From NCBI GenBank assembly GCA_017795025.1, contig CP051243.1, positions 3,248,897-3,312,896 of the forward strand: a stretch of 64,000 nucleotides of DNA, written 5' to 3'. A model generated the notes under the pieces. The model was not told the DNA's origin, did no database searches, and worked only from the letters and a program-made list of their open reading frames with translations. Made by a program: the position numbers and the translations under genes. Below, one piece after another: positions 21,125 through 32,793 of the stretch. This stretch comes from Flavobacteriales bacterium (GTDB lineage: Bacteria > Bacteroidota > Bacteroidia > Flavobacteriales > Schleiferiaceae). The stretch's first letter is position 1; each line of letters starts with the position of its first letter.

Positions 21125-24100
21125 CTATTTTTTAACCATGGTTTGCCGTATGCTCCCAAAGGACCCTTGAATCTCCAAATGATAGAAGCCTGGGCTTAAA
21201 TTGCTGAGGTTTATCCTGGCAGGATTTTCCTCTGGCCGCCATACTCTAACCAATTGCCCGCTGCTACTATAAATGAGCAGCTTTTCCACGGTTCCTGTGT
21301 TTTCGGGCCATTCCAGATAGAGGTAGTCCTCAATGGGATTCGGATAGAGCTTGGCGTCAAAGGTCTCCAGTTCCTCGATGCCTATTTGGTTAAGACGGAA
21401 GCTTCGTTGATCATTCCCGCAAATACCGTTAATAGTTAAGGTTACCTTATAAAATAAGCCTGGAGTATTGTAAATGTGGATGGGTGTAGGCCCTACTCCG
21501 GTATTTCCGTCGCCAAAGTCCCAACTGTAGGAACTCGCGCCCGTTGATAGGGTTCCGTCGAATTGTACTCTTAGTCCAGAGTTTACCGGTGGTAAAATGG
21601 TGTACGTCCAATCTGCTTTAGGGGGGTCACAAGCTTCTACTCTCCGCGTATTGCGAACGGTATCACCACAGGCGTTCCAAGCCACCAAGGTGACAAACTT
21701 GTCGAGGGTGTCACTATAGAAAGCAGAGGCCGTATTACCAGTCGCGCTAGTTCCATTTCCTAAATCCCATGAATAGCCCGTTGCATTATTCCCAGGGTTA
21801 GCTGTAAATCGGGTACTATCCGTTCCCTGACTCCAGGTAAAATTGGCCCTTAAGGTGTCGCAAACCTCTATTATCTGCACCAAAGTATCGCTATTACCAC
21901 AATCGTTGGCAGCGATAAGCACTACTGTATAAGTTCCGGCAGCCGGGTAGAAGTAGACCGGATTGGTGGCAGAGCTGCTATCCCCAGTACCAAAGTCCCA
22001 GATAAGGGTGTCTGAGTTGGTAGAGGTGGAGCTAAAGCTGCGGCGTAAGAACCAATCACTTACCGTAAAACCTGCCGTTACAGTGTCACAGATTAAGGTT
22101 TGTAAGGTGTCAATTAAACTATTTCCCACAATGGTTCCGCAACTATCAAAGAGTTCGACCACGTAGTTGGAACTCGCATTTAAATTGTTGAGGGTATAGG
22201 GGCTATTCACATTATTTACTACCGTTGCCGATCCTGGGCCCAAGGTAGCATCGTACCAACGTAAGGTGGTGGCCGATCCACCACTGATATTGCTGTTTTG
22301 CCAGGTGAAGCTTAGACTATTATAGGTAGTGGTTTGTACCTGCAGGTTGAATGGGCCGCCGCAGGAAGGTCCCGTGGCTCGTACACTTACTTCATCAACG
22401 GCAATATCACCTTGCCCTCCAGAGGACTGCCCCACAAAAATGACTTCGATGGTGTCGCCCACATAAGCGCTCAGGTCAATTGAATCTATTTTCCAAGCCG
22501 CGCCACTGCTGGTTTGCTGTTGACCAGTCCAGGTGCGCAGGTTGATATTGTTACCATTGTTACGGGTATTAATTCGAATTCTCAGTGAGTTGATATTATT
22601 TCCGAACATATGGTAACTATAGTACAGCTTTGGATTGGAAGTGTTTATCAAAGCAATTTCTGGGGTACGCATAGTGGCGTTGATAGTCGATGAGGTGAAA
22701 TCACTTTCAAAATAAATGTAATTGCCTCCGCCTAAAGCGTCTTCTAAGGGTCCGGTATTAAAGCTCGGTGTAGTGCCTTTTCCAACGCCCCATTTATCAT
22801 TATTTAAAGCTCTATTTCGTACCCAGCAAGGACTAATTGCGTCTCCTGTATTAAAGAAGCCGACTCCTTCTTGCCATGGCAAGGCATCAAAATTTTCATT
22901 AAAGGGCAGATTAGAAACCCCACAACCGGTATTCCCAAAAAGAGGGCCTTCCCACCAGCTTACATCTCCGGGTCCGCAACTGTCGCGCACATAAATCTCA
23001 TAAGAGGTATTCGAATTTAAACCGGTAATGGTAAATGGCTTGGAGCTTACATTAAGGAAGGTGAATGGAATCGTGGATCCAACCGCACGGTAACGTACTT
23101 GCCAATTGGTAGCTCCCCCGGTAGTCCAATTAAGAGTAATGGAGTTAGGACTATTGGCGGTTTGATTTAAATTAGTGGGGTTCGGACAAGTGGGTGTATT
23201 ATCAATACGAATATCATCTATAGCGATATTCACCCTAAATGCAAATCCAGTACTTCTAAACCCACGGAACCGGAGCTGGATGGTATCACCAAGGTAAGAG
23301 CTTAAACTAACGATTCGTTCTTGCCAAGCTGCAGTTGTGGTGGTTTGTTGCTGTCCGGTAATGGTGTTGAGCACGGACCAACCGCTTCCATCATTAATGG
23401 ATATGACCAGTTTATCGATGTCGGTTCCGAACATATGGTACCAAAACCTCAACTCAGGATTGCTTAAAGTATCTAAACTAATAAGTGGACTCACAAGGTC
23501 GCTGCTTAGGCCGTTTCCAAAGGCCCCTTCACGAACGGTGTATGCATAAAAGCCATTTCCGGTAGTATGGTCTCCGGAGGGACCAGATTGGAAACCATCG
23601 CTTGCACCTTGGTTTCCTCGCCAGAAGTAAGCTGCGGTATCACTCCTCGACCAGCAAGGATCTATATCACCAGGATCATTAAATACGCTAGGATCCGTCC
23701 AAGTTCCACTTTCAAAATTCTCAAAATAAGGAGCTACATTAATCACACAAGCGGTGCGCGCCGAAACTCCGGTTGACCAAAAGCTTACGTCGTTAAGACC
23801 ACAACTATCCCGAACGTAAATCTGATAAGGAGTGTTGGGGCTTAAACCGTTTAAAACGAAGGGATTAGAGCCAGCATTTACTATAGTTCCCGAACCCGCG
23901 CTAAAGCCGGGAGGGCCATATTCTATTTGCCAGTTGTTAGCACCCCCGCTAGTCCAGCTAAGGGTTAAGCTATTGGCTCCTACAGCGGTAACAGCTAAGT
24001 TGCTAGGCTGAGGGCAGCTAGGTTGTTCATCAATCCTAAGGTCATCAATACCGATTGGTGCCTGATTGCTAAAAGGAGAGTTTCGATAGGCAATAAACTT

Positions 24101-26566
24101 AAGGCCAATGGTGTCGCCCGTATAGTTAGCCAAAGAAACAATGGCTTCTTGCCAGGGATCGCTGCTCGCATTTTGTTGTTGACCAGAGATACTCCATAGA
24201 TATTGAAACCCGGAGCCATCATTGATGTGCACGGCAAGCGAGTCGATACCAACCCCAAACATGTGATACCAAAAACGGAGTTCAGGAGTGCTTAATGGGC
24301 TGAGGTCTACCAAAGGTGTAAAGCCATCAGTTTCGGTTACCTGACCAAGACCAAAAGTGAAAAGGGCTTGGGTAAACAGATATTGTCCTGAGCCGGTCGT
24401 GTGATCACTATTCGGTCCCGCATTAAAAGAAGTGGTTGGACCATCTTCAATAGACCATTGATAATTAACTCCAGTGTCTCTCGACCAACAGCTATTTAAG
24501 GTGCCGGCAACATTGAAGGCTCCCGGACTAAAATCGGTTCCATCAAAGTTTTCAAAGTAAGGTGCCGTGATAGGATTGCATGAAGTTTGGATGGTGATAG
24601 GGTTACTCCAAATAGATACATCCCCGGGACCGCAACTATCCCTTACGTAAATCACATAAGAGGTATTGGCGCTTAGGCCAGTAAGGTTAAATGGATTGGA
24701 GCCGGCGTTAACAATAGTACCCGCATTAGCGCTAGTTCCCGGAGGGCCGTAGGAGATATTCCAGTTTGAAGCGCCACCGCTAAGCCAAGTGAGGTTGGCA
24801 TTGGTGGTACCAACACTTAATGCATTTAAGTTTTGAGGTTTTGGACAACTGGGAGCTTCATCAATATTTACATCGTCAATGGCAATGTCGGCAGCAAAGC
24901 CATTACTGGATCTAAAGCCCACAAAGCGCAGTTGGATGGTGTCGTTTAGGTAAGGACTTAAGGATGCAATCACTTCTTTCCAAGCCTGACCCTTGCTCGA
25001 TTGTTGTTGGCCCACTTGTGTGCTGAGAAGTTGGAAGGCTCCCCCATTGGAAATATAAACCTTTAAGCGATCAATATTGGCCCCAAACATATGGGTGTAA
25101 AAAGTAAGTTGAGGTGCAGAAAGGCCCCCAAGGTCGATTAAAGGACTTTGAAGAATGGTGGAGTCGCTAGAGCCTCCAGCGATTACCTCCGTGTATAAAT
25201 ATTGTGCACTGCCAGTGGTGTGGTCTCCGTTAGGGCCTGTGTTAGTTGGGCTAAATAGGGGAGGGCCCGTTTTCCAGACGTAAATAGTAGTGGGGGTGCG
25301 GGTCCAACAAGAGTTTAAATTTCCGAGTCCGTTAAAAGTAGGGCTGGTCGTAAAGCCATTGGCGTCAAAATTTTCGGTGTAAGGAGTTGCTAAAGGATTA
25401 CAAGCGGTCCGAAAACTTAGAGGACCAATCCAATCCGAAACATCGTTGGCAGCACAACTATCCCGTACATAAACTTCATAATTGGTATTGGGACTTAAGC
25501 TACTAATGGTTCCAGGGTTTGAATTTGTATTTACAATGGTGCCATTGGCCACATTAAAGCCGGGTGTGCCGTACGAAAATTGCCAATTGCTTGCCCCTCC
25601 ACTTGTCCAACTGAAAGTGGCAGAATTAAACCCGGCGAAAACCAAGGCTAAGTTTTGAGGCTTCGGACAACTAGGCGCTTCGTCAATCTGAACATCATCT
25701 ATACAGATCGCATTTTGGAAACCCACGGTTTGTTCTTTGGCACGAAACAACAATCGTATAGTATCATTAGCGTATGCACTTAGGTTTAGAATGCTTTCTT
25801 TCCAGGCATCGCTATTCGAAGTTTGCTGCTGACCGCTAATGGTTTGAAGCAAGGTGTAGTTTAAACCGTAGTCGGTGGTTATATAAACCTTCAATTCTTC
25901 GATATCGGCACCAAACATATGGTACCAAAAGCTTAGCTGAGGAGCGTTAAGAACCGTTAAATCGAAAAGAGGAGAAAGGAAATCTGCGGAATCCGAGGGA
26001 TTTAAGGGAAAGCTGATTTGATCAATCATAACATACTTTCCGTTTCCAGATTTATCATTAGCTGCGCCGGTAAAGTTGCTTACAAAAGTTGGGGGACCAG
26101 TTTTCCAGATATATCCAGTAGTGGCATTTCGTTGCCAACATGCGTTAATTGTTCCCGCAGAGTTAAAGCCTCCTGTTGACCAGGCAGAACCATTAAAGCT
26201 TGCAGTGAATGGAGGATTAACCACGGCGCAACTGGTAGTTGCTGTTATAAAAGAGGGCCAAGGATTAGCACCAGCGGTACATTGTTCCCGAACTTGAAGA
26301 GCATAGTTGGTGCTTGCGTTTAAACCATTAATGGTAATAGGCTTTGCAGAGGTATTGTTAATGGTAGCGCTACCCAAAGTGCCACCTTGGACTACAAAGC
26401 GGTATTCAAAATTAGCGGCGGTGGTATTGTCCCAATCTACCGTAATAAAATCAGGACCATAAGCAACTACCCTCAGGTTTGTAGGGGTATTGCATTGTGC
26501 GAGCAGATTAGAATTCGGTAGAAAAAAGAGTAGGCTTCCGGCTACAAGGAATAGTAGTTTTTTCAT
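21125..26566 (-). CDS. Giant modular T9SS-secreted protein (Fn3, MAM-like and PKD repeats)
   Basis: An 1813-residue protein. After a signal peptide (to about 23) it alternates fibronectin type III units with MAM/jelly-roll-like units. Six Fn3 starts are visible (CNTPTNLRV, twice CPKPQNL, CPQPSNL, CPNPTNL, CGGPFNL), and five MAM-like units begin PF/PY..NFD and contain LRFWYHMFG and GDTIQLRF motifs. Three PKD domains follow (about 1480-1735; WDFGTGDSS, WDLGNGTSA, WDFGDGNTG). The last 75 residues, LYPNPIEDYLYLEW to SIRQTMVKK, are a T9SS type A sorting domain. It is probably a surface adhesin or binding protein; no catalytic motif was seen. The repeats make it prone to recombination and misassembly. 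Confidence 0.88.
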   Translation of the reverse strand: MKKLLFLVAGSLLFFLPNSNLLAQCNTPTNLRVVAYGPDFITVDWDNTTAANFEYRFVVQGGTLGSATINNTSAKPITINGLNASTNYALQVREQCTAGANPWPSFITATTSCAVVNPPFTASFNGSAWSTGGFNSAGTINACWQRNATTGYIWKTGPPTFVSNFTGAANDKSGNGKYVMIDQISFPLNPSDSADFLSPLFDLTVLNAPQLSFWYHMFGADIEELKVYITTDYGLNYTLLQTISGQQQTSNSDAWKESILNLSAYANDTIRLLFRAKEQTVGFQNAICIDDVQIDEAPSCPKPQNLALVFAGFNSATFSWTSGGASNWQFSYGTPGFNVANGTIVNTNSNPGTISSLSPNTNYEVYVRDSCAANDVSDWIGPLSFRTACNPLATPYTENFDANGFTTSPTFNGLGNLNSCWTRTPTTIYVWKTGPPLFSPTNTGPNGDHTTGSAQYLYTEVIAGGSSDSTILQSPLIDLGGLSAPQLTFYTHMFGANIDRLKVYISNGGAFQLLSTQVGQQQSSKGQAWKEVIASLSPYLNDTIQLRFVGFRSSNGFAADIAIDDVNIDEAPSCPKPQNLNALSVGTTNANLTWLSGGASNWNISYGPPGTSANAGTIVNAGSNPFNLTGLSANTSYVIYVRDSCGPGDVSIWSNPITIQTSCNPITAPYFENFDGTDFSPGAFNVAGTLNSCWSRDTGVNYQWSIEDGPTTSFNAGPNSDHTTGSGQYLFTQALFTFGLGQVTETDGFTPLVDLSPLSTPELRFWYHMFGVGIDSLAVHINDGSGFQYLWSISGQQQNASSDPWQEAIVSLANYTGDTIGLKFIAYRNSPFSNQAPIGIDDLRIDEQPSCPQPSNLAVTAVGANSLTLSWTSGGANNWQIEYGPPGFSAGSGTIVNAGSNPFVLNGLSPNTPYQIYVRDSCGLNDVSFWSTGVSARTACVINVAPYFENFESGTWTDPSVFNDPGDIDPCWSRSDTAAYFWRGNQGASDGFQSGPSGDHTTGNGFYAYTVREGAFGNGLSSDLVSPLISLDTLSNPELRFWYHMFGTDIDKLVISINDGSGWSVLNTITGQQQTTTTAAWQERIVSLSSYLGDTIQLRFRGFRSTGFAFRVNIAIDDIRIDNTPTCPNPTNLNQTANSPNSITLNWTTGGATNWQVRYRAVGSTIPFTFLNVSSKPFTITGLNSNTSYEIYVRDSCGPGDVSWWEGPLFGNTGCGVSNLPFNENFDALPWQEGVGFFNTGDAISPCWVRNRALNNDKWGVGKGTTPSFNTGPLEDALGGGNYIYFESDFTSSTINATMRTPEIALINTSNPKLYYSYHMFGNNINSLRIRINTRNNGNNINLRTWTGQQQTSSGAAWKIDSIDLSAYVGDTIEVIFVGQSSGGQGDIAVDEVSVRATGPSCGGPFNLQVQTTTYNSLSFTWQNSNISGGSATTLRWYDATLGPGSATVVNNVNSPYTLNNLNASSNYVVELFDSCGTIVGNSLIDTLQTLICDTVTAGFTVSDWFLRRSFSSTSTNSDTLIWDFGTGDSSSATNPVYFYPAAGTYTVVLIAANDCGNSDTLVQIIEVCDTLRANFTWSQGTDSTRFTANPGNNATGYSWDLGNGTSATGNTASAFYSDTLDKFVTLVAWNACGDTVRNTRRVEACDPPKADWTYTILPPVNSGLRVQFDGTLSTGASSYSWDFGDGNTGVGPTPIHIYNTPGLFYKVTLTINGICGNDQRSFRLNQIGIEELETFDAKLYPNPIEDYLYLEWPENTGTVEKLLIYSSSGQLVRVWRPEENPARINLSNLSPGFYHLEIQGSFGSIRQTMVKK

Positions 26567-26842: not shown

Positions 26843-27505
26843 ATGGAAGAAAATAGCGCATCAACCGGAAGTATAAAAGATATTTTAAAGCAGAACTTTC
26901 CTGTTTTTCATAATGATAGTGTCCTTGAGAAAATTGCCAAGGAAGCACGTGTTTTTCAAAATGATGAAGAAGGGGTGGTAGTAGATTTGGGTGATTTCCC
27001 AAAATGGATACCTCTAGTAACCAAAGGGGCCATTAAAATTAGCCGCATCGATAATGAAGGAGGTGAGATATTTTTATACTACCTCTATCCAGGGCAAACC
27101 TGTGCCATGACTCTTAACTGCTGTATGGTTGATAAGCCAAGTGAAGTTAGAGCCATAGCCGAAGCCGGTACAGAGTTTATCGGTTTGCCGAGAAGGTCCT
27201 TGCCTCAATGGATGATGGATTTTGAAGAATGGCGGCAGTTTACCTTGGAGGCCTACAATGAACGCTACGAAAACTTGCTGGCAACAATTGATGCCATTGC
27301 CTTCCAAAAGCTAGACGAGCGATTAATCGGATTATTAAGGGATAAGAGTATTGCTATGGGAACTACCGAAGTGGAAGTAACGCATAAGCGGCTCGCCGAA
27401 GAATTACATTCTTCTCGAGAAGTAATCTCCCGTTTGCTCAAACAACTCGAAAAATTAGGTAAGGTTAGTTTGAGGCGAAACAAAATTAAACTACTTGATT
27501 TCTAG
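26843..27505 (+). CDS. Crp/Fnr family transcriptional regulator
   Basis: A 220-residue regulator with an N-terminal cyclic-nucleotide-binding-type beta barrel (about 20-130; GAIKISRIDNEGGEIFLYYLYPGQTCAMTLNC) and a C-terminal winged helix (about 150-220; VTHKRLAEELHSSREVISRLLKQLEKLGKVSL, where SSREVISR is the recognition helix). Residues in the barrel include CCMV, with two adjacent cysteines at the pocket but no four-Cys iron-sulfur motif, so it is not a classical oxygen-sensing Fnr. The signal is unknown. The cysteine-dioxygenase-like and rhodanese genes downstream are candidate targets. Confidence 0.92.
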   Translation: MEENSASTGSIKDILKQNFPVFHNDSVLEKIAKEARVFQNDEEGVVVDLGDFPKWIPLVTKGAIKISRIDNEGGEIFLYYLYPGQTCAMTLNCCMVDKPSEVRAIAEAGTEFIGLPRRSLPQWMMDFEEWRQFTLEAYNERYENLLATIDAIAFQKLDERLIGLLRDKSIAMGTTEVEVTHKRLAEELHSSREVISRLLKQLEKLGKVSLRRNKIKLLDF

Positions 27506-27568
27506 CTGACTTTTATCATATTTTTTTTGACTTCCGATGCTTAATTTCCATAATCAATTACGGCTGCA

Positions 27569-28093
27569 ATGGAAACAATAAAATCGGTTGAAAGACTTCG
27601 CTATAACCTCAATTTAGGGCCAGGATATGGAGGGTATAGCGAGCTGCTAAAGGCGGTTGATCTCGACAAAAATGCCCTAGAAAACTTTGTACAGTTTAGT
27701 CAGGAATCTTACCGTCGACTAAGAATTTACGACACGGATGTTATAGAAGCGGTTCTCACTTGTTGGGAGCCTCATCAGAAGGGAATGATTCACGACTTTC
27801 ATAATTCCTTCGGCTGGTTTAAAGTACTGAAGGGCTCGATAGGGATAGAGCATTTTAGGTTAGAAAAAGACAAGCCTATCTTGCGTTTTAATTATGAATA
27901 CCCTTGCGATGGGCAAGGATTTTTAAATGATGATTTAGGCTTTCATCGCTTTCAGAATTTAAGTAGCGGGCGAACGATAGTTTTGCACCTTTATGCCGAT
28001 AAGATTAAGCATTGGGAGGTCTATAACGAGAATTTAAATTGCGTGGAGGATCGCAAGGCCGAGGTGCATGTGAATTTTGACCGGCCCGCTTAG
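27569..28093 (+). CDS. Cysteine-dioxygenase-like cupin protein
   Basis: A 174-residue cupin. The pattern fits cysteine dioxygenase: IHD..NS.GWFKVLKGS (residues 74-90), GFHRFQN (124-130) and LHLYADKI. In the family three histidines hold Fe(II) and cysteine is oxidised to its sulfinate. Here the usual H-x-H pair reads H75-D76-F77-H78: the second ligand position is Phe and the histidine has moved by one residue, while the third (H126) is present. The position of the Cys in the mammalian Cys-Tyr crosslink is Gly82, as in bacterial members. It may use another thiol, or be inactive. It starts 63 bases after the Crp/Fnr gene and precedes a rhodanese. Confidence 0.75.
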   Translation: METIKSVERLRYNLNLGPGYGGYSELLKAVDLDKNALENFVQFSQESYRRLRIYDTDVIEAVLTCWEPHQKGMIHDFHNSFGWFKVLKGSIGIEHFRLEKDKPILRFNYEYPCDGQGFLNDDLGFHRFQNLSSGRTIVLHLYADKIKHWEVYNENLNCVEDRKAEVHVNFDRPA

Positions 28094-28169
28094 CCCGAGT
28101 CGTGATAGCGGTCACCTTCGAAGTTCCATAATTGCGCGTGCTTTGCACCCATAAAACAAACAAAGCATT

Positions 28170-28475
28170 ATGGGATTATTTTCTTTTCTAAGTAAGAAAG
28201 GTGATAAAATACAGGACTTTAAAAGTCGCGGCGCAGTGGTGATTGATGTTCGTAGCAAAGAGGAGTTCAGAGGAGGGCATATTAAAGGCTCTAAGAATAT
28301 GCCTCTGCCGGTTATTTCTTCTAAGCTCGATGAAATAAAAAAGCTGGGAAAACCAGTTATTTTCTGTTGTGCTTCAGGAATGCGCAGTGGTCAGGCAACC
28401 GCAATAATGAAAAAGCAAGGAATCGAGTGCATGAACGGCGGAGGCTGGATGAGTTTGCAAAGACACTGGAAATAG
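28170..28475 (+). CDS. Single-domain rhodanese (sulfurtransferase)
   Basis: A 101-residue protein with one rhodanese domain: VIDVRSKEEFRGGHIKGSKNMPL, then the active-site loop CASGMRS with the catalytic Cys in FCCASGMRSGQA, and NGGGWMSL near the end. Such small proteins carry a persulfide sulfur in thiosulfate, polysulfide or thiol metabolism. There is no signal peptide, so it is cytoplasmic. It lies 76 bases after the cysteine-dioxygenase-like gene, and the neighbourhood suggests a thiol/sulfur function; that is an inference. Confidence 0.92.
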   Translation: MGLFSFLSKKGDKIQDFKSRGAVVIDVRSKEEFRGGHIKGSKNMPLPVISSKLDEIKKLGKPVIFCCASGMRSGQATAIMKKQGIECMNGGGWMSLQRHWK

Positions 28476-29610: not shown

Positions 29611-29649
29611 AAAAAAAGCCGTCTCGAACTGATTTCGAGACGGCTTTTT
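29611..29649. terminator. Strong bidirectional hairpin terminator
   Basis: GCCGTCTCGAA (29618-29628), loop CTGAT, TTCGAGACGGC (29634-29644), flanked by seven A and five T. It separates the convergent nucleoid-protein and TonB-receptor genes. Confidence 0.9.
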
Positions 29650-29652
29650 AGC

Positions 29653-31878
29653 TTAAAACTTAAAATAGAGGCCGGCATAAATGTTTCGACCGAAAATGGG
29701 ACCCCAAACGAAGTTACTATCAAAATATGGAGCATAAGGCTGCTCGCTATTTACGATGGGGTTCTCCTGACGAAAATCAAATAGATTGTCAACTCCAGTA
29801 AAAAATTCAAAGGATTTGTAAGTATAGTTTATTTGCGCATTCACCGTGAAATAATCTGGAGACTGTTCTGCCTGTCGAAATTCACTTGGGCTAAGCAAGC
29901 TCTTCGGAAGCCGCTTGCTTCCAAACCAATTAAGGGTAGCATCAATTTTCCAATTTTCGACCGGTGCATAGCTTGCATTAAAGAATGCACGATGCATAGG
30001 AACCTGATAGGCCAAATTCTTTTCTTCTAAAAACTGATCCTCACTTCTTAGGAATTTGTAGGCTAAACGCAAATCGAGTTTGTCCTTGAAGGTGTAATCC
30101 ATCTGACTTAAAACAGAGAAAGAATTAGAACCGCTGCGGTTTAAGATGTAAGCAACTTGAGGGTCGTAATCCAAATCCATAATTAGCTTAGATTCAAACC
30201 AGGTGTAAAAGGCATCGGTATTCCAGCGGATTAAGGTCTCACCAAAGATTAAGTTTTGATTCCAGCTAAAACCAGCATTCCACGCCACCTCAGGGAAGCG
30301 GTAATTATCCGCAAAAACCAGCTTTCGAGAAGAAGCTAAGGCACTGCTGCTTTCAGCCAGGCGATTGGGACTCCTCTGGCCACGACCACCACTAAGACGA
30401 AAGGTGCTGTTGCGGTTGAGCTGGTAGCGAACTTGCAATCGAGGACTTAAATATGCGGCCTTGAAAAAAGAATTGTAGTCGGCCCTAAGCCCAGCCACCA
30501 AACTGAAATCCTCTCCAGATTCGTAACTGTACTCAAAATAGGCGCCCGGGACAATTTCCTCACGCTTATGATTGTATAAGGTGCTATCTATTGGATTTTG
30601 AACCAAGCTCTCGCTGAGTAAATCAGCCTGAAAGGAAAGGCCAGTTTTAAACTGATGTTCAAGATTACCGATATAATCGTGTAGTATGGTGTTGAGGTAA
30701 AAGCTTGTTTCGTCAAAACTTGCCACGCGATTACCAAAGGTGGAATTTCGGCTGTGATAACTAGCTCTATAAATTATGCCTAAACTCCTCAATTGCTCTT
30801 CTGGAAAGATATATCCGTTTTTACCAAAGAGCTCCATGCGACGCTCCGAGGTGCTAAATCCCCAATTGATTCCTTCTGCACCGCTGAGGAAATCCATTTG
30901 CCCACCTTCTCGTAAATCGTCGATAAAAAGCAGTCCTAATTGCCCTTCCCAGTTTTCACCTAGGCGGTAATGAGTGCGGTTCAATAAGTTTAATTGCCTA
31001 CCAGTGGTTAAATCGGCAAAGCCGTCTTCATTGCGATCTTGCGCAAAGGGAATGCTGCTAAAATGAAGCATCGTTAAATTATGAGCTTCGTTTTCCGCTT
31101 TCCACGAATTACGAACCATCAGGTTTACCTCATTTCGACCTCCCGTATTACCGAAAACATTTAAAAGCAGTCGAGGGGCATTTTCGGGCTTGTAGTATTC
31201 TACATTGATTTGACCAGTTACACTTTCATATCCATTTAATACAGAGCTTAAGCCTTTGGTAACTTGGATGCTTTCGATAAATGGGCCCGGTACATATGAA
31301 AGTCCGTTACGAGCATTTAGGCCACGTGCAAAAGGGATGTTTTCGCGTTGAATAAGGGCGTACTTCCCAGCGAGGCCGAGCATTTCAATTTGCTTGGTGC
31401 CTGTAATTCCATCACTAAAGGAAACATCGATACTGGCATTAGTTTCGAAGCTTTCGGAAAGATTACAACAAGCAGCCTTGCGGAGTTCTTTGTTATTAAT
31501 TTCGAAATGCAGGCCTGCTGCTTGGGCGTTGATCCGCGTTGCCAAGGCTTCCGCACTTACGGTAACATCGTCGAGTTCGGTGTTTTCTGGAATTAAAACA
31601 AAATTGGTGCTACCCTTGCGGGAGATGATCACCTTAGACATAGGTTGAAAACCAGCGAACTGCGCGATGAGGGTTGTCTTCCCAGCTACCTTTTCTATTT
31701 CAAAGAAGCCGTCTTCATTCGTAGTGGTTCCAACCGTGGTTCCTTCCCAATAAACTTCGGCGAATGGAGCGGGATTTTGTTGGCCATCTTCGAAGAGGTA
31801 AACATAACCATTGATTTGTGACCATGCTGGAATAGCGCCCAACAACAGTAGGGCGCAAATTATAAATCGAGTATTCAT
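29653..31878 (-). CDS. TonB-dependent receptor, probable metal (copper) handling
   Basis: A 741-residue outer-membrane receptor. It has a signal peptide (to about 20), a carboxypeptidase-like domain (INGYVYLFEDGQQNPAPFAEVYWEGTTVGTTTNEDGFFEI), a plug (about 110-235) and a barrel ending in NIYAGLYFKF. In the plug the segment KAACCNLSESFETNASIDV carries two adjacent cysteines found in a subgroup of Bacteroidota receptors that neighbour HMA proteins. Five bases separate it from the HMA-domain gene upstream, so both are one operon. Transport of copper, or of a metal complex, is inferred from context; the ligand cannot be seen. Confidence 0.88.
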   Translation of the reverse strand: MNTRFIICALLLLGAIPAWSQINGYVYLFEDGQQNPAPFAEVYWEGTTVGTTTNEDGFFEIEKVAGKTTLIAQFAGFQPMSKVIISRKGSTNFVLIPENTELDDVTVSAEALATRINAQAAGLHFEINNKELRKAACCNLSESFETNASIDVSFSDGITGTKQIEMLGLAGKYALIQRENIPFARGLNARNGLSYVPGPFIESIQVTKGLSSVLNGYESVTGQINVEYYKPENAPRLLLNVFGNTGGRNEVNLMVRNSWKAENEAHNLTMLHFSSIPFAQDRNEDGFADLTTGRQLNLLNRTHYRLGENWEGQLGLLFIDDLREGGQMDFLSGAEGINWGFSTSERRMELFGKNGYIFPEEQLRSLGIIYRASYHSRNSTFGNRVASFDETSFYLNTILHDYIGNLEHQFKTGLSFQADLLSESLVQNPIDSTLYNHKREEIVPGAYFEYSYESGEDFSLVAGLRADYNSFFKAAYLSPRLQVRYQLNRNSTFRLSGGRGQRSPNRLAESSSALASSRKLVFADNYRFPEVAWNAGFSWNQNLIFGETLIRWNTDAFYTWFESKLIMDLDYDPQVAYILNRSGSNSFSVLSQMDYTFKDKLDLRLAYKFLRSEDQFLEEKNLAYQVPMHRAFFNASYAPVENWKIDATLNWFGSKRLPKSLLSPSEFRQAEQSPDYFTVNAQINYTYKSFEFFTGVDNLFDFRQENPIVNSEQPYAPYFDSNFVWGPIFGRNIYAGLYFKF

Positions 31879-31883
31879 AACAA

Positions 31884-32231
31884 CTACTTGTGTTTATGAA
31901 CGTTGTTGGGGTCTCGATAGTAACAACAGGGGTCTAAGCTGTAGTAGCTTGAGTCGGAGGCTGTTTGAAATTCCGTGTCGTAACCAGACTTAGTGATGGA
32001 TTTGCTTATTGCCGCCAGGTTGGTGACTTGAGGGTCAAACTTCAGTTTTAGAACCAGAGTTTCTTTACTCCATTCGGCAAAGCTAACCCCTTCAATTTGG
32101 GCAGCCTTTTCGATAGTAGATTTACACATTCCACAAACGCCATTAACAACCATACTGGTATCTGTAATGGATTGTGCTTGACTGATAAGTCCGAAGAAAG
32201 TGAAAACGAATATTAGATTAAATTTTTTCAT
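31884..32231 (-). CDS. Periplasmic heavy-metal-associated (HMA) domain protein
   Basis: A 115-residue exported protein with a signal peptide (MKKFNLIFVFTFFGLISQAQ) and one HMA domain (about 25-90). The metal-binding loop is VNGVCGMCKSTIEKA, a CxxC pair for Cu(I) or similar soft metals. After the domain comes a Cys/His-rich tail, DPCCYYRDPNNVHKHK, that could form a second site. It sits five bases upstream of the TonB receptor and 56 bases after the HYC_CC_PP gene. It probably works as a periplasmic metal chaperone for the system. Confidence 0.92.
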   Translation of the reverse strand: MKKFNLIFVFTFFGLISQAQSITDTSMVVNGVCGMCKSTIEKAAQIEGVSFAEWSKETLVLKLKFDPQVTNLAAISKSITKSGYDTEFQTASDSSYYSLDPCCYYRDPNNVHKHK

Positions 32232-32287
32232 TGCAATTTGATTTTAAAAAGATGTTCTTGATTTACTAGCTTTAAGTAAAATCATCT

Positions 32288-32734
32288 CTAAATCAAATAG
32301 CATTGAACGGTGGCAAGGAACTCAGGCGTTGATAGATAACGGTTTGGTTCTGGAGGAGAACTATTGGAGGCTTCTTCCTCTACTTCCGAATATCCCACAA
32401 AAATCAATTGATTAGACTGCGGGTAGAGTTGAGGACTTATTATTTTAGGAGATTGAGATTTTGACTCTTGATTTACGGTATCGATATTATCAATCTGAAT
32501 CCATTCGTTGCGACAGCAATCTTCCTTGTTTAATTGACCTTCTTCGTGGGAATTATGGGAGCCGTGGCAAGAGTCCTTATCAAAAAGGATCTCCATACCG
32601 CAGCTATTTTCAGAATGATAAAGATGTTCTGAGATGAGCTCGTCGGAACAGTAATGGCGACTTAATAGAAATCCCATACCCGCCCAGAGTAGAGCAGGTA
32701 TTAATAGCATGCTAGTGATTTTTCGCCAAATCAT
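32288..32734 (-). CDS. HYC_CC_PP family protein (metal-responsive operon leader gene)
   Basis: A 148-residue protein with an N-terminal hydrophobic segment (MLLIPALLWAGMGFLL) and the three landmarks that name the family: RHYCSDEL (about 26-32), a CC pair in KEDCCRNEW, and PP in NSSPPEPN. The segment between also has CHGSHNSHEE, a His/Cys-rich stretch that could bind metal. It is the first gene of the HMA-TonB receptor operon. Function is unknown; family members usually neighbour copper or other metal genes. The -7 element at 32739-32746 is only five bases from the ATG, so the message is predicted to be nearly leaderless. Confidence 0.8.
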   Translation of the reverse strand: MIWRKITSMLLIPALLWAGMGFLLSRHYCSDELISEHLYHSENSCGMEILFDKDSCHGSHNSHEEGQLNKEDCCRNEWIQIDNIDTVNQESKSQSPKIISPQLYPQSNQLIFVGYSEVEEEASNSSPPEPNRYLSTPEFLATVQCYLI

Positions 32735-32738
32735 TTTT

Positions 32739-32746
32739 CAAAAGTA
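32739..32746 (-). promoter_or_regulatory. -7 element TACTTTTG, promoter of the metal operon
   Basis: CAAAAGTA on the plus strand, five bases before the HYC_CC_PP start codon, which predicts a leaderless or near-leaderless transcript. Confidence 0.55.
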
Positions 32747-32764: not shown

Positions 32765-32793
32765 AAAAAGGTCCCAAAAAATTGGGACCTTTT
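32765..32793 (-). terminator. Hairpin terminator of the SPOR-barrel gene
   Basis: AAAAGGTCCCAA, loop AAAA, TTGGGACCTTTT: 12-base perfect arms, lying between the SPOR-barrel gene end and the metal operon promoter. Confidence 0.85.

Follow-up and report, generated by a model that had tools for sequence, protein, structure and literature searches.

In a 64,000-nucleotide (nt) stretch of a Flavobacteriales bacterium (contig CP051243.1, positions 3,248,897 to 3,312,896; hereafter the window), three genes in a row encode a small protein of the HYC_CC_PP family (hereafter HYC), an exported copper-chaperone-like protein with a probable HMA domain, and a TonB-dependent receptor (TBDR). From sequence comparison across Bacteroidota, we consider it probable that HYC is a leader open reading frame (ORF), which would sense copper or a similar soft metal during its own export and translation and so set the expression of the HMA-TBDR pair. 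HYC is read as a regulatory leader because HYC genes head both receptor and CusA-type operons, the distance between the CC and PP motifs is fixed, and an RNA stem is predicted from the HYC stop codon to the next start. On the same grounds we depart from a first-pass annotation of this DNA, which had made HYC itself a part of a metal route.

HYC family and motif spacing

The window HYC matched NF047658.1 (HYC_CC_PP) with 50.9 bits, against a curated cut-off of 28, and was the sole match at E 1 in this genome (a single 3.44-Mb contig); no Pfam match was found for it at E 0.1. Of 296 genomes from the phylum, 95 had HYC matches, with 84 above the curated cut-off. Set 1 comprised 100 regions, covering 102 of the 127 matches outside the window's own genome; the 24 weakest (some over the cut-off) and one in genome G130 were left out, and loci L079 and L123 gave no HYC ORF. 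From at least 591 receptor loci, the best 80 were taken as set 2; one of the two search patterns was the plug motif ACC[NS]L[SA]ESF. ORFs were called from the most upstream start, in controls as well. One false HYC, the rhodanese L168_3, and the duplicates L184 and L208 are still part of the arm-swap, pairing, codon and promoter-box counts given below, whereas the spacing, C-terminal end and gap-matched stem counts drop them (by exact match or redundancy filter), with the same result.

The first-pass annotation was accurate about the genes and their motifs: the three adjacent minus-strand ORFs lie where it had placed them, and HYC, CC and CHGSH are present in the first protein, CGMC and DPCC...VHKHK in the second and ACC in the receptor plug of the third. 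Cys stood at the HYC-motif column in all 102 set-1 HYCs, and CC at the window's CC columns in 101 of the 102. The distance from CC to the last PP was 56.3 residues in set 1 (standard deviation, sd, 1.87; range 52-61; n = 92) and 56.8 residues in the second set without duplicates (sd 2.14; n = 48). Earlier counts had taken the PP nearest to the expected distance and were repeated with the last PP. The stretch from HYC to CC was shorter yet looser (34.0 residues, sd 5.40, n = 101), and CC-PP linkers of equal length shared a mean identity of 16.6%. After PP, 20 residues follow in the window; in set 1 there were 10-13 in 22 of 102 HYCs and 14-20 in 71, the other nine being without PP.

HYC might instead be a working periplasmic metal-binding chaperone or buffer that stands first in the operon by chance and forms a route with HMA and TBDR; we consider this quite unlikely. 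The conserved Cys/His ligands and the linkage to copper genes would suit such a protein. In the AlphaFold model, a helix at residues 2-19 (hydrophobic by eye) precedes modelled strands (22-29, 32-40 and 74-81) in which the HYC and CC motifs lie and which would suit it as well; strand pairing was not seen. Model confidence (pLDDT, by block) was 85-95 for residues 1-40, 79 for residues 71-80 and 52-65 elsewhere, a pattern that we count towards the leader reading. The low confidence of residues 81-148 speaks against a working periplasmic protein. Such a protein would also leave unexplained why CC and PP stay equally far apart although the linker between them is not conserved, as well as the coevolving stop-to-start stem and the long gap after HYC, both described below.

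Operons headed by HYC in Bacteroidota

Genes behind HYC were counted over up to six same-strand genes with gaps of at most 350 nt. Behind 102 HYC ORFs (99 loci) we found RND efflux genes in 44 cases, TBDR with HMA in 32, TBDR alone or fused in 5, other HMA genes in 13, a multicopper oxidase in 3, and none of these in 5. The RND proteins pointed to a copper-type setting: in 43 of the 46 long RND proteins of HYC loci, Met stood at each of the three sites that align with the CusA methionines (Met573, 623 and 672, as given in the available part of PMC11213822). The window genome's own best CusA/CzcA match was CzcA-like by eye, was fused to an outer-membrane factor and had no HYC.

In the window's own genome, near position 371658, a CusA/CzcA-family pump and its outer-membrane factor were fused into one ORF of 1440 aa (L292, 5001-9323), which no HYC precedes. 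At 13 HYC loci (L080, L082, L084, L085, L087, L088, L094, L097, L100, L109, L115, L117 and L128), CusA-like pumps were divided between two neighbouring ORFs (about 430 and 640 aa). The break followed the ...MVENAYRH segment in L082 and L087, and in L087 the second ORF began at the stop of the first. Two loci carried head-to-head HYC genes. In L053 one faced an AraC-type gene and the other a CusA-type pump; in L194 one faced an unassigned 710-aa ORF and the other an HMA-TBDR pair.

Predicted stem between the HYC stop and the next start

A stem of at least 8 bp was predicted at 106 of 139 HYC junctions (median 18-20 bp), compared with 101 of 467 controls. When HYC junctions were made non-redundant and controls were matched for gap length, it was found in 87 of 127 and 19 of 127, respectively (Fisher p = 1.6e-18, which overstates the significance because related genomes are not independent). 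Scored by expected base pairs, the stem was present at 39 of 47 TBDR/HMA junctions, 18 of 29 RND junctions and 8 of 16 others. The median gap after HYC was 87 nt, against 12 nt at 112 HMA/TBDR junctions.

Pairs could not be counted from MAFFT alignments of the junctions, which had too many gaps; joint change of the arms was therefore tested by exchanging them between loci. In the two sets, the HYC medians weakened from -12.7 to -8.1 kcal/mol (n = 98) and from -13.2 to -7.7 kcal/mol (n = 50), while control medians went from -7.3 to -7.7 and from -8.7 to -7.8 kcal/mol. The median cost of the swap was thus 4.6 and 5.5 kcal/mol for HYC and -0.4 and +0.9 kcal/mol for controls. Swapping weakened the HYC stems, unlike the controls, indicating that the two arms changed together. 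The window stem had a minimum free energy of -21 kcal/mol and ranked 0.024 in the arm-swap test. Measured from the end of the stop codon, stems began 6 and 11 nt (medians) further upstream. The shielded part lay near -10, where the paired fraction was 0.69 and 0.62 compared with 0.44 and 0.44 in controls. GC pairs made up 0.20 and 0.19 of all pairs, showing that the stems were AU-rich.

The stem could act on transcription, as an intrinsic terminator or together with Rho as in CruR, and we regard such a switch as unlikely. CruR does use Rho-dependent termination, according to the available part of PMC9426467, and at least 5 T within the 8 bases downstream followed 10 of the 106 stems. The intrinsic terminator was dropped as a candidate for the other 96, which had no such T-run; the AU-rich composition also stands against it.

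Proposed mechanism and alternatives

In the leader reading, once PP has reached the peptidyl-transferase centre, the ribosomal tunnel would hold about 30 residues and the membrane about 17. Residue 80 would then be just outside, and CC just in the periplasm. Metal bound at the nascent Cys/His site would alter the pull on the chain and hence how the ribosome pauses. If held at PP, the ribosome would stand short of the stem, which would stay closed; on reaching the last HYC codons it would melt the stem and open the next start. The geometry of PP relative to the stem uses the general footprint of a ribosome. Once made, the receptor would import a metal complex with the participation of its plug CC, and HMA, with its CxxC and CC tail and at times fused to the receptor, would take the ion in the periplasm. 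Both signs of the copper effect may occur across HYC operons.

The end of HYC also counts towards the leader reading. HYCs ended in [FY][LR]I in 60 of 102 cases in set 1, 15 of 19 in the window's family and 27 of 65 in set 2 (102 of 186 overall). Leucine codons at this end matched their usage in the rest of the gene, indicating that the peptide itself is conserved; the Ile codon was ATT in 76% vs 46%. TGA was the stop codon of 95 of 187 HYC genes, compared with 220 of 1577 other genes in all sets. It is possible, as a tentative extension, that HYC_CC_PP proteins are export-coupled copper sensors throughout Bacteroidota, whose own last codons and stop form an arm of the stem, whose pause at the end opens the next gene, and whose logic is opposite for TBDR-HMA uptake and CusA efflux.

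A leader that pauses near its stop through the [FY][LR]I end, as TnaC does, with PP auxiliary, the stem open and the operon on, seems rather unlikely to us. It would account for the conserved end peptide, the TGA excess and the position at which stems begin. Two HYCs of the window's genus that have no PP (L167 and L169) retain the [FY][LR]I end, and a stem mass of at least 8 bp was predicted at 13 of 20 junctions of PP-less HYCs (the false L168_3 among the 20). However, the PP distance was constant in most members, and the end might instead mark the protein for degradation, as was suggested for the nonpolar end of CruR (available part of PMC9426467), or might partly reflect RNA constraint, given the Ile codon bias. 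We place lower odds on readings with a pause at the stop because the [FY][LR]I end is found in little more than half of the HYCs and the window's family shows no TGA excess: its stops were TAG in 15 of 20 (the window's among them) and TGA in 2 of 20.

Several observations weigh against the leader proposal, among them this absence of a TGA excess. PP was missing in 9 of 101 CC-bearing set-1 HYCs, in 12 of 62 second-set HYCs and in L167 and L169; the junctions of these last two (z -0.9 and -0.2) also folded barely better than shuffled sequences, or not better at all. When the distance was taken to the first PP behind CC, it was less regular (sd 7.97). The window PP is SSPP rather than RAPP, and its position falls outside the published filter for CutF-like proteins (available part of PMC9973294). 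DUF2946 was absent from the matches of 19 HYCs up to E 1. The window stem was modest (z -2.32), and the paired fraction of the next start codon barely exceeded that of controls (0.66 vs 0.61). One RND protein behind HYC (L119_3) lacked the CusA methionines. HYC heads operons of presumed import and of presumed export, so a single sign of regulation cannot fit both. No functional data on any HYC protein were found in the literature searched.

The receptor and HMA pair

HMA matched PF00403 at E 8.3e-5 with 23.3 bits, slightly below the gathering score of 24.8. Its nearest solved sequences were HMA domains of copper ATPases, and CopZ matched too. CxxC was present in 74 of 75 HMA ORFs shorter than 200 aa at these loci, and CC within the last 50 residues in 56 of the 75, a group that also takes in HMAs not beside a receptor. 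The window TBDR exceeded the cut-offs for PF07715 (30.2 bits; cut-off 23.9), PF00593 (73.3; 27) and PF13715. Its model had a pLDDT of 90.4, and Foldseek returned generic TonB-dependent transporters (TBDTs) only, OprC among them. TIGR01778 (OprC-type) was not matched at E 0.1, and the OprC-type CxxxM was not found at the plug Cys, as the residues four after C137 and C138 are Ser and Glu.

In 51 of 57 receptor-profile matches at HYC loci, a figure free of motif choice, the plug motif KAACCNL[SA]ESFE had its CC; among 25 genes of this genome that carry a plug, plug CC occurred in 1. Five of the six matches without it lay off the strand of HYC or before HYC, and the sixth (L178_12) lay past an opposite-strand gene. 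In receptor-family alignments A1 and A6, plug CC is invariant by construction because rows were picked by it; H272 was kept in at least 90% of these rows. Rows of alignments A2 and A7 were picked by hand.

Among the 80 receptor loci of set 2, HYC was upstream of the receptor in 64, and in 65 a CC-tail HMA was either fused to the receptor or encoded no more than four genes away on its strand. At 19 of the 80 the HMA domain was the N-terminal part of the receptor itself, and two more such fusions were found in the phylum set. The first-pass annotation had staked its proposal on linkage of the three genes, and this linkage recurred: 59 of the 80 loci had enough flank, and all three genes were together at 43, HMA only at 7, HYC only at 7 and neither at 2. 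These arrangements give good grounds for taking receptor and HMA as functional partners, and the cargo of the receptor may be copper. Of the proposed surface-to-periplasm route for copper or a similar metal, the copper-type setting and the receptor-HMA partnership are supported by the genomes, and HYC as a part of the route is not. In one HMA-TBDR fusion (L125, 4109-6808), a long His-rich linker separates the CC tail from the receptor.

Gene organization in the window

Positions of the features are collected in Table 1. Intergenic gaps were 56 nt between HYC and HMA and 5 nt between HMA and TBDR, and the three genes likely form one unit bounded by terminator-like hairpins. Hairpins at the upstream place recurred in same-genus relatives. 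An automated sigma-70-type scan, which is ill-suited to Bacteroidota, reported neither flanking hairpin.

Table 1. Features of the HYC-HMA-TBDR locus, in window coordinates.
Feature	Position	Strand	Basis or detail
Hairpin and T-run between upstream gene and operon	32765..32793	-	By eye; hairpins recur there in relatives
TACTTTTG, -7 box like	32739..32746	-	Box type enriched 5' of HYC genes
HYC_CC_PP gene, proposed copper-sensing leader ORF	32288..32734	-	148 aa; NF047658.1 profile match
HYC motif, residues 27-29, after N-terminal hydrophobic helix	32648..32656	-	Sequence
CC motif, residues 73-74	32513..32518	-	Sequence
PP motif, residues 127-128	32351..32356	-	54 residues past CC; 20 codons (60 nt) before stop
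C-terminal Tyr-Leu-Ile codons and TAG stop of HYC	32288..32299	-	Sequence
Predicted RNA stem	32227..32307	-	Arm 32283-32307 (last HYC codons, stop) pairs with 32227-32254 (HMA landing site, start)
HMA gene, exported copper-chaperone-like protein	31884..32231	-	115 aa; PF00403 and nearest solved sequences
CGMC metal-binding loop of HMA domain	32124..32135	-	Sequence
CC of HMA tail (DPCCYYRDPNNVHKHK, DPCC...VHKHK)	31923..31928	-	Sequence
TBDR gene, CarboxypepD_reg-like N-terminal domain	29653..31878	-	741 aa; PF00593, PF07715, PF13715, model
Plug CC (residues 137-138) in KAACCNLSESFETN; ACC = 136-138	31465..31470	-	Sequence
Hairpin and T-run 3' of receptor gene	29611..29649	.	By eye

A single shared TACTTTTG promoter had also been proposed. 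The box is present and a single unit is likely; no TTG partner of the box was seen in the window. Boxes of the type TAnnTTTG lay at most 60 nt upstream of 109 of 187 HYC genes, compared with 247 of 1633 other genes of the same loci, an enrichment that we count towards a leader position of HYC. The form with TTG 19-23 nt before the box was rarer (16 of 187 HYC genes vs 27 of 1633 others). An Rfam search of the window gave three matches up to E 1, all far below the gathering scores and none in the HYC-HMA gap.

The HYC-HMA-TBDR block was found with the same neighbours in six same-genus relatives. The receptor was split over two ORFs in one (L166), and in another (L165, 6998-7303) an in-frame TAG broke the HYC gene while the HMA and TBDR ORFs were intact. 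Elsewhere in the window, a Crp/Fnr-type regulator, a cysteine-dioxygenase-like protein and a rhodanese stand in a row on the plus strand (26843-28475), perhaps as a sulfur module, and a secreted protein of 1813 aa has internal repeats and a type IX secretion-like tail by eye (21125-26566).

Significance and comparison with known systems

Copper-sensing leader ORFs are already known, namely CutF and CruR. New, as far as the literature searched, are the tie of NF047658 to such leaders, the CC-PP distance, the coevolving stem and the HMA-TBDR fusions with plug CC. In the literature searched, neither the name HYC_CC_PP nor an experimentally shown outer-membrane copper uptake pair in Bacteroidota was found. 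NF047658, a named family without function, would gain a testable job, HMA and TBDR would likely be such an uptake pair, and the stem would be an RNA element without a good Rfam match in the window. The available parts of two related studies contained no data on the HYC operon: one on Bizionia, whose copper genes include a predicted OprC-like receptor (PMC11213822), and one on a Bacteroidetes iron stimulon (PMC10434189).

The receptor resembles OprC and CrtA in its TBDT fold, and CrtA also lies behind a copper leader. It differs in that the window TBDR has neither TIGR01778 nor CxxxM, and the CrtA logo has no conserved Cys (CrtA as described in the available part of PMC12914433). A possible pause at the last codons is a likeness between HYC and TnaC (mentioned in the available part of PMC9973294).

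CutF of Rhodobacter capsulatus is a copper-responsive leader for which a hold of the ribosome by copper was proposed; for its chain, the tunnel was estimated to hold 30 residues and the membrane 17. The survey of CutF-like proteins already included many Bacteroidota, with TonB and RND neighbours (both from the available part of PMC9973294), and its Bacteroidota part likely overlaps with HYC members. By the filters given there, HYC is below the size limit (148 aa, <150) and its next same-strand gene is 56 nt away, within the limit of 1000 nt. Another of these filters is an N-terminal signal peptide, at the place of which HYC has the modelled helix of residues 2-19. Both are small Cys proteins (exported in CutF, probably so in HYC), first in a copper operon, with a Pro motif near the C-terminus and a short gap in which a stem (by prediction for HYC) shields the next start. 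The distance from sensor to Pro is 45 in CutF and about 56 in HYC, a reach that would carry the metal site to the other side of SecY. However, HYC has no DUF2946 match, HYC and CC replace CxxxC, 10-20 residues follow PP, and the last codons of the leader lie inside an AU-rich stem.

CruR of Bordetella pertussis (bp2923-bfrG-bp2921) was proposed to release the ribosome in response to copper, and its spacing is constrained, as five added residues strongly cut the copper effect (available part of PMC9426467). Arrest of CruR in vitro was reported (available part of PMC12992588). In both, a leader comes with genes for a TonB-dependent transporter and a partner, motif spacing is constant and Pro-Pro is present. 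The differences are that CXXC and RAPP are absent from the window HYC, that a 162-nt gap and Rho in CruR contrast with a 56-nt gap and a predicted stem here, and that the partner is PepSY_TM in CruR and HMA here. By analogy with these two systems, HYC is probably a Bacteroidota variant of the CutF/CruR copper-sensing leader.

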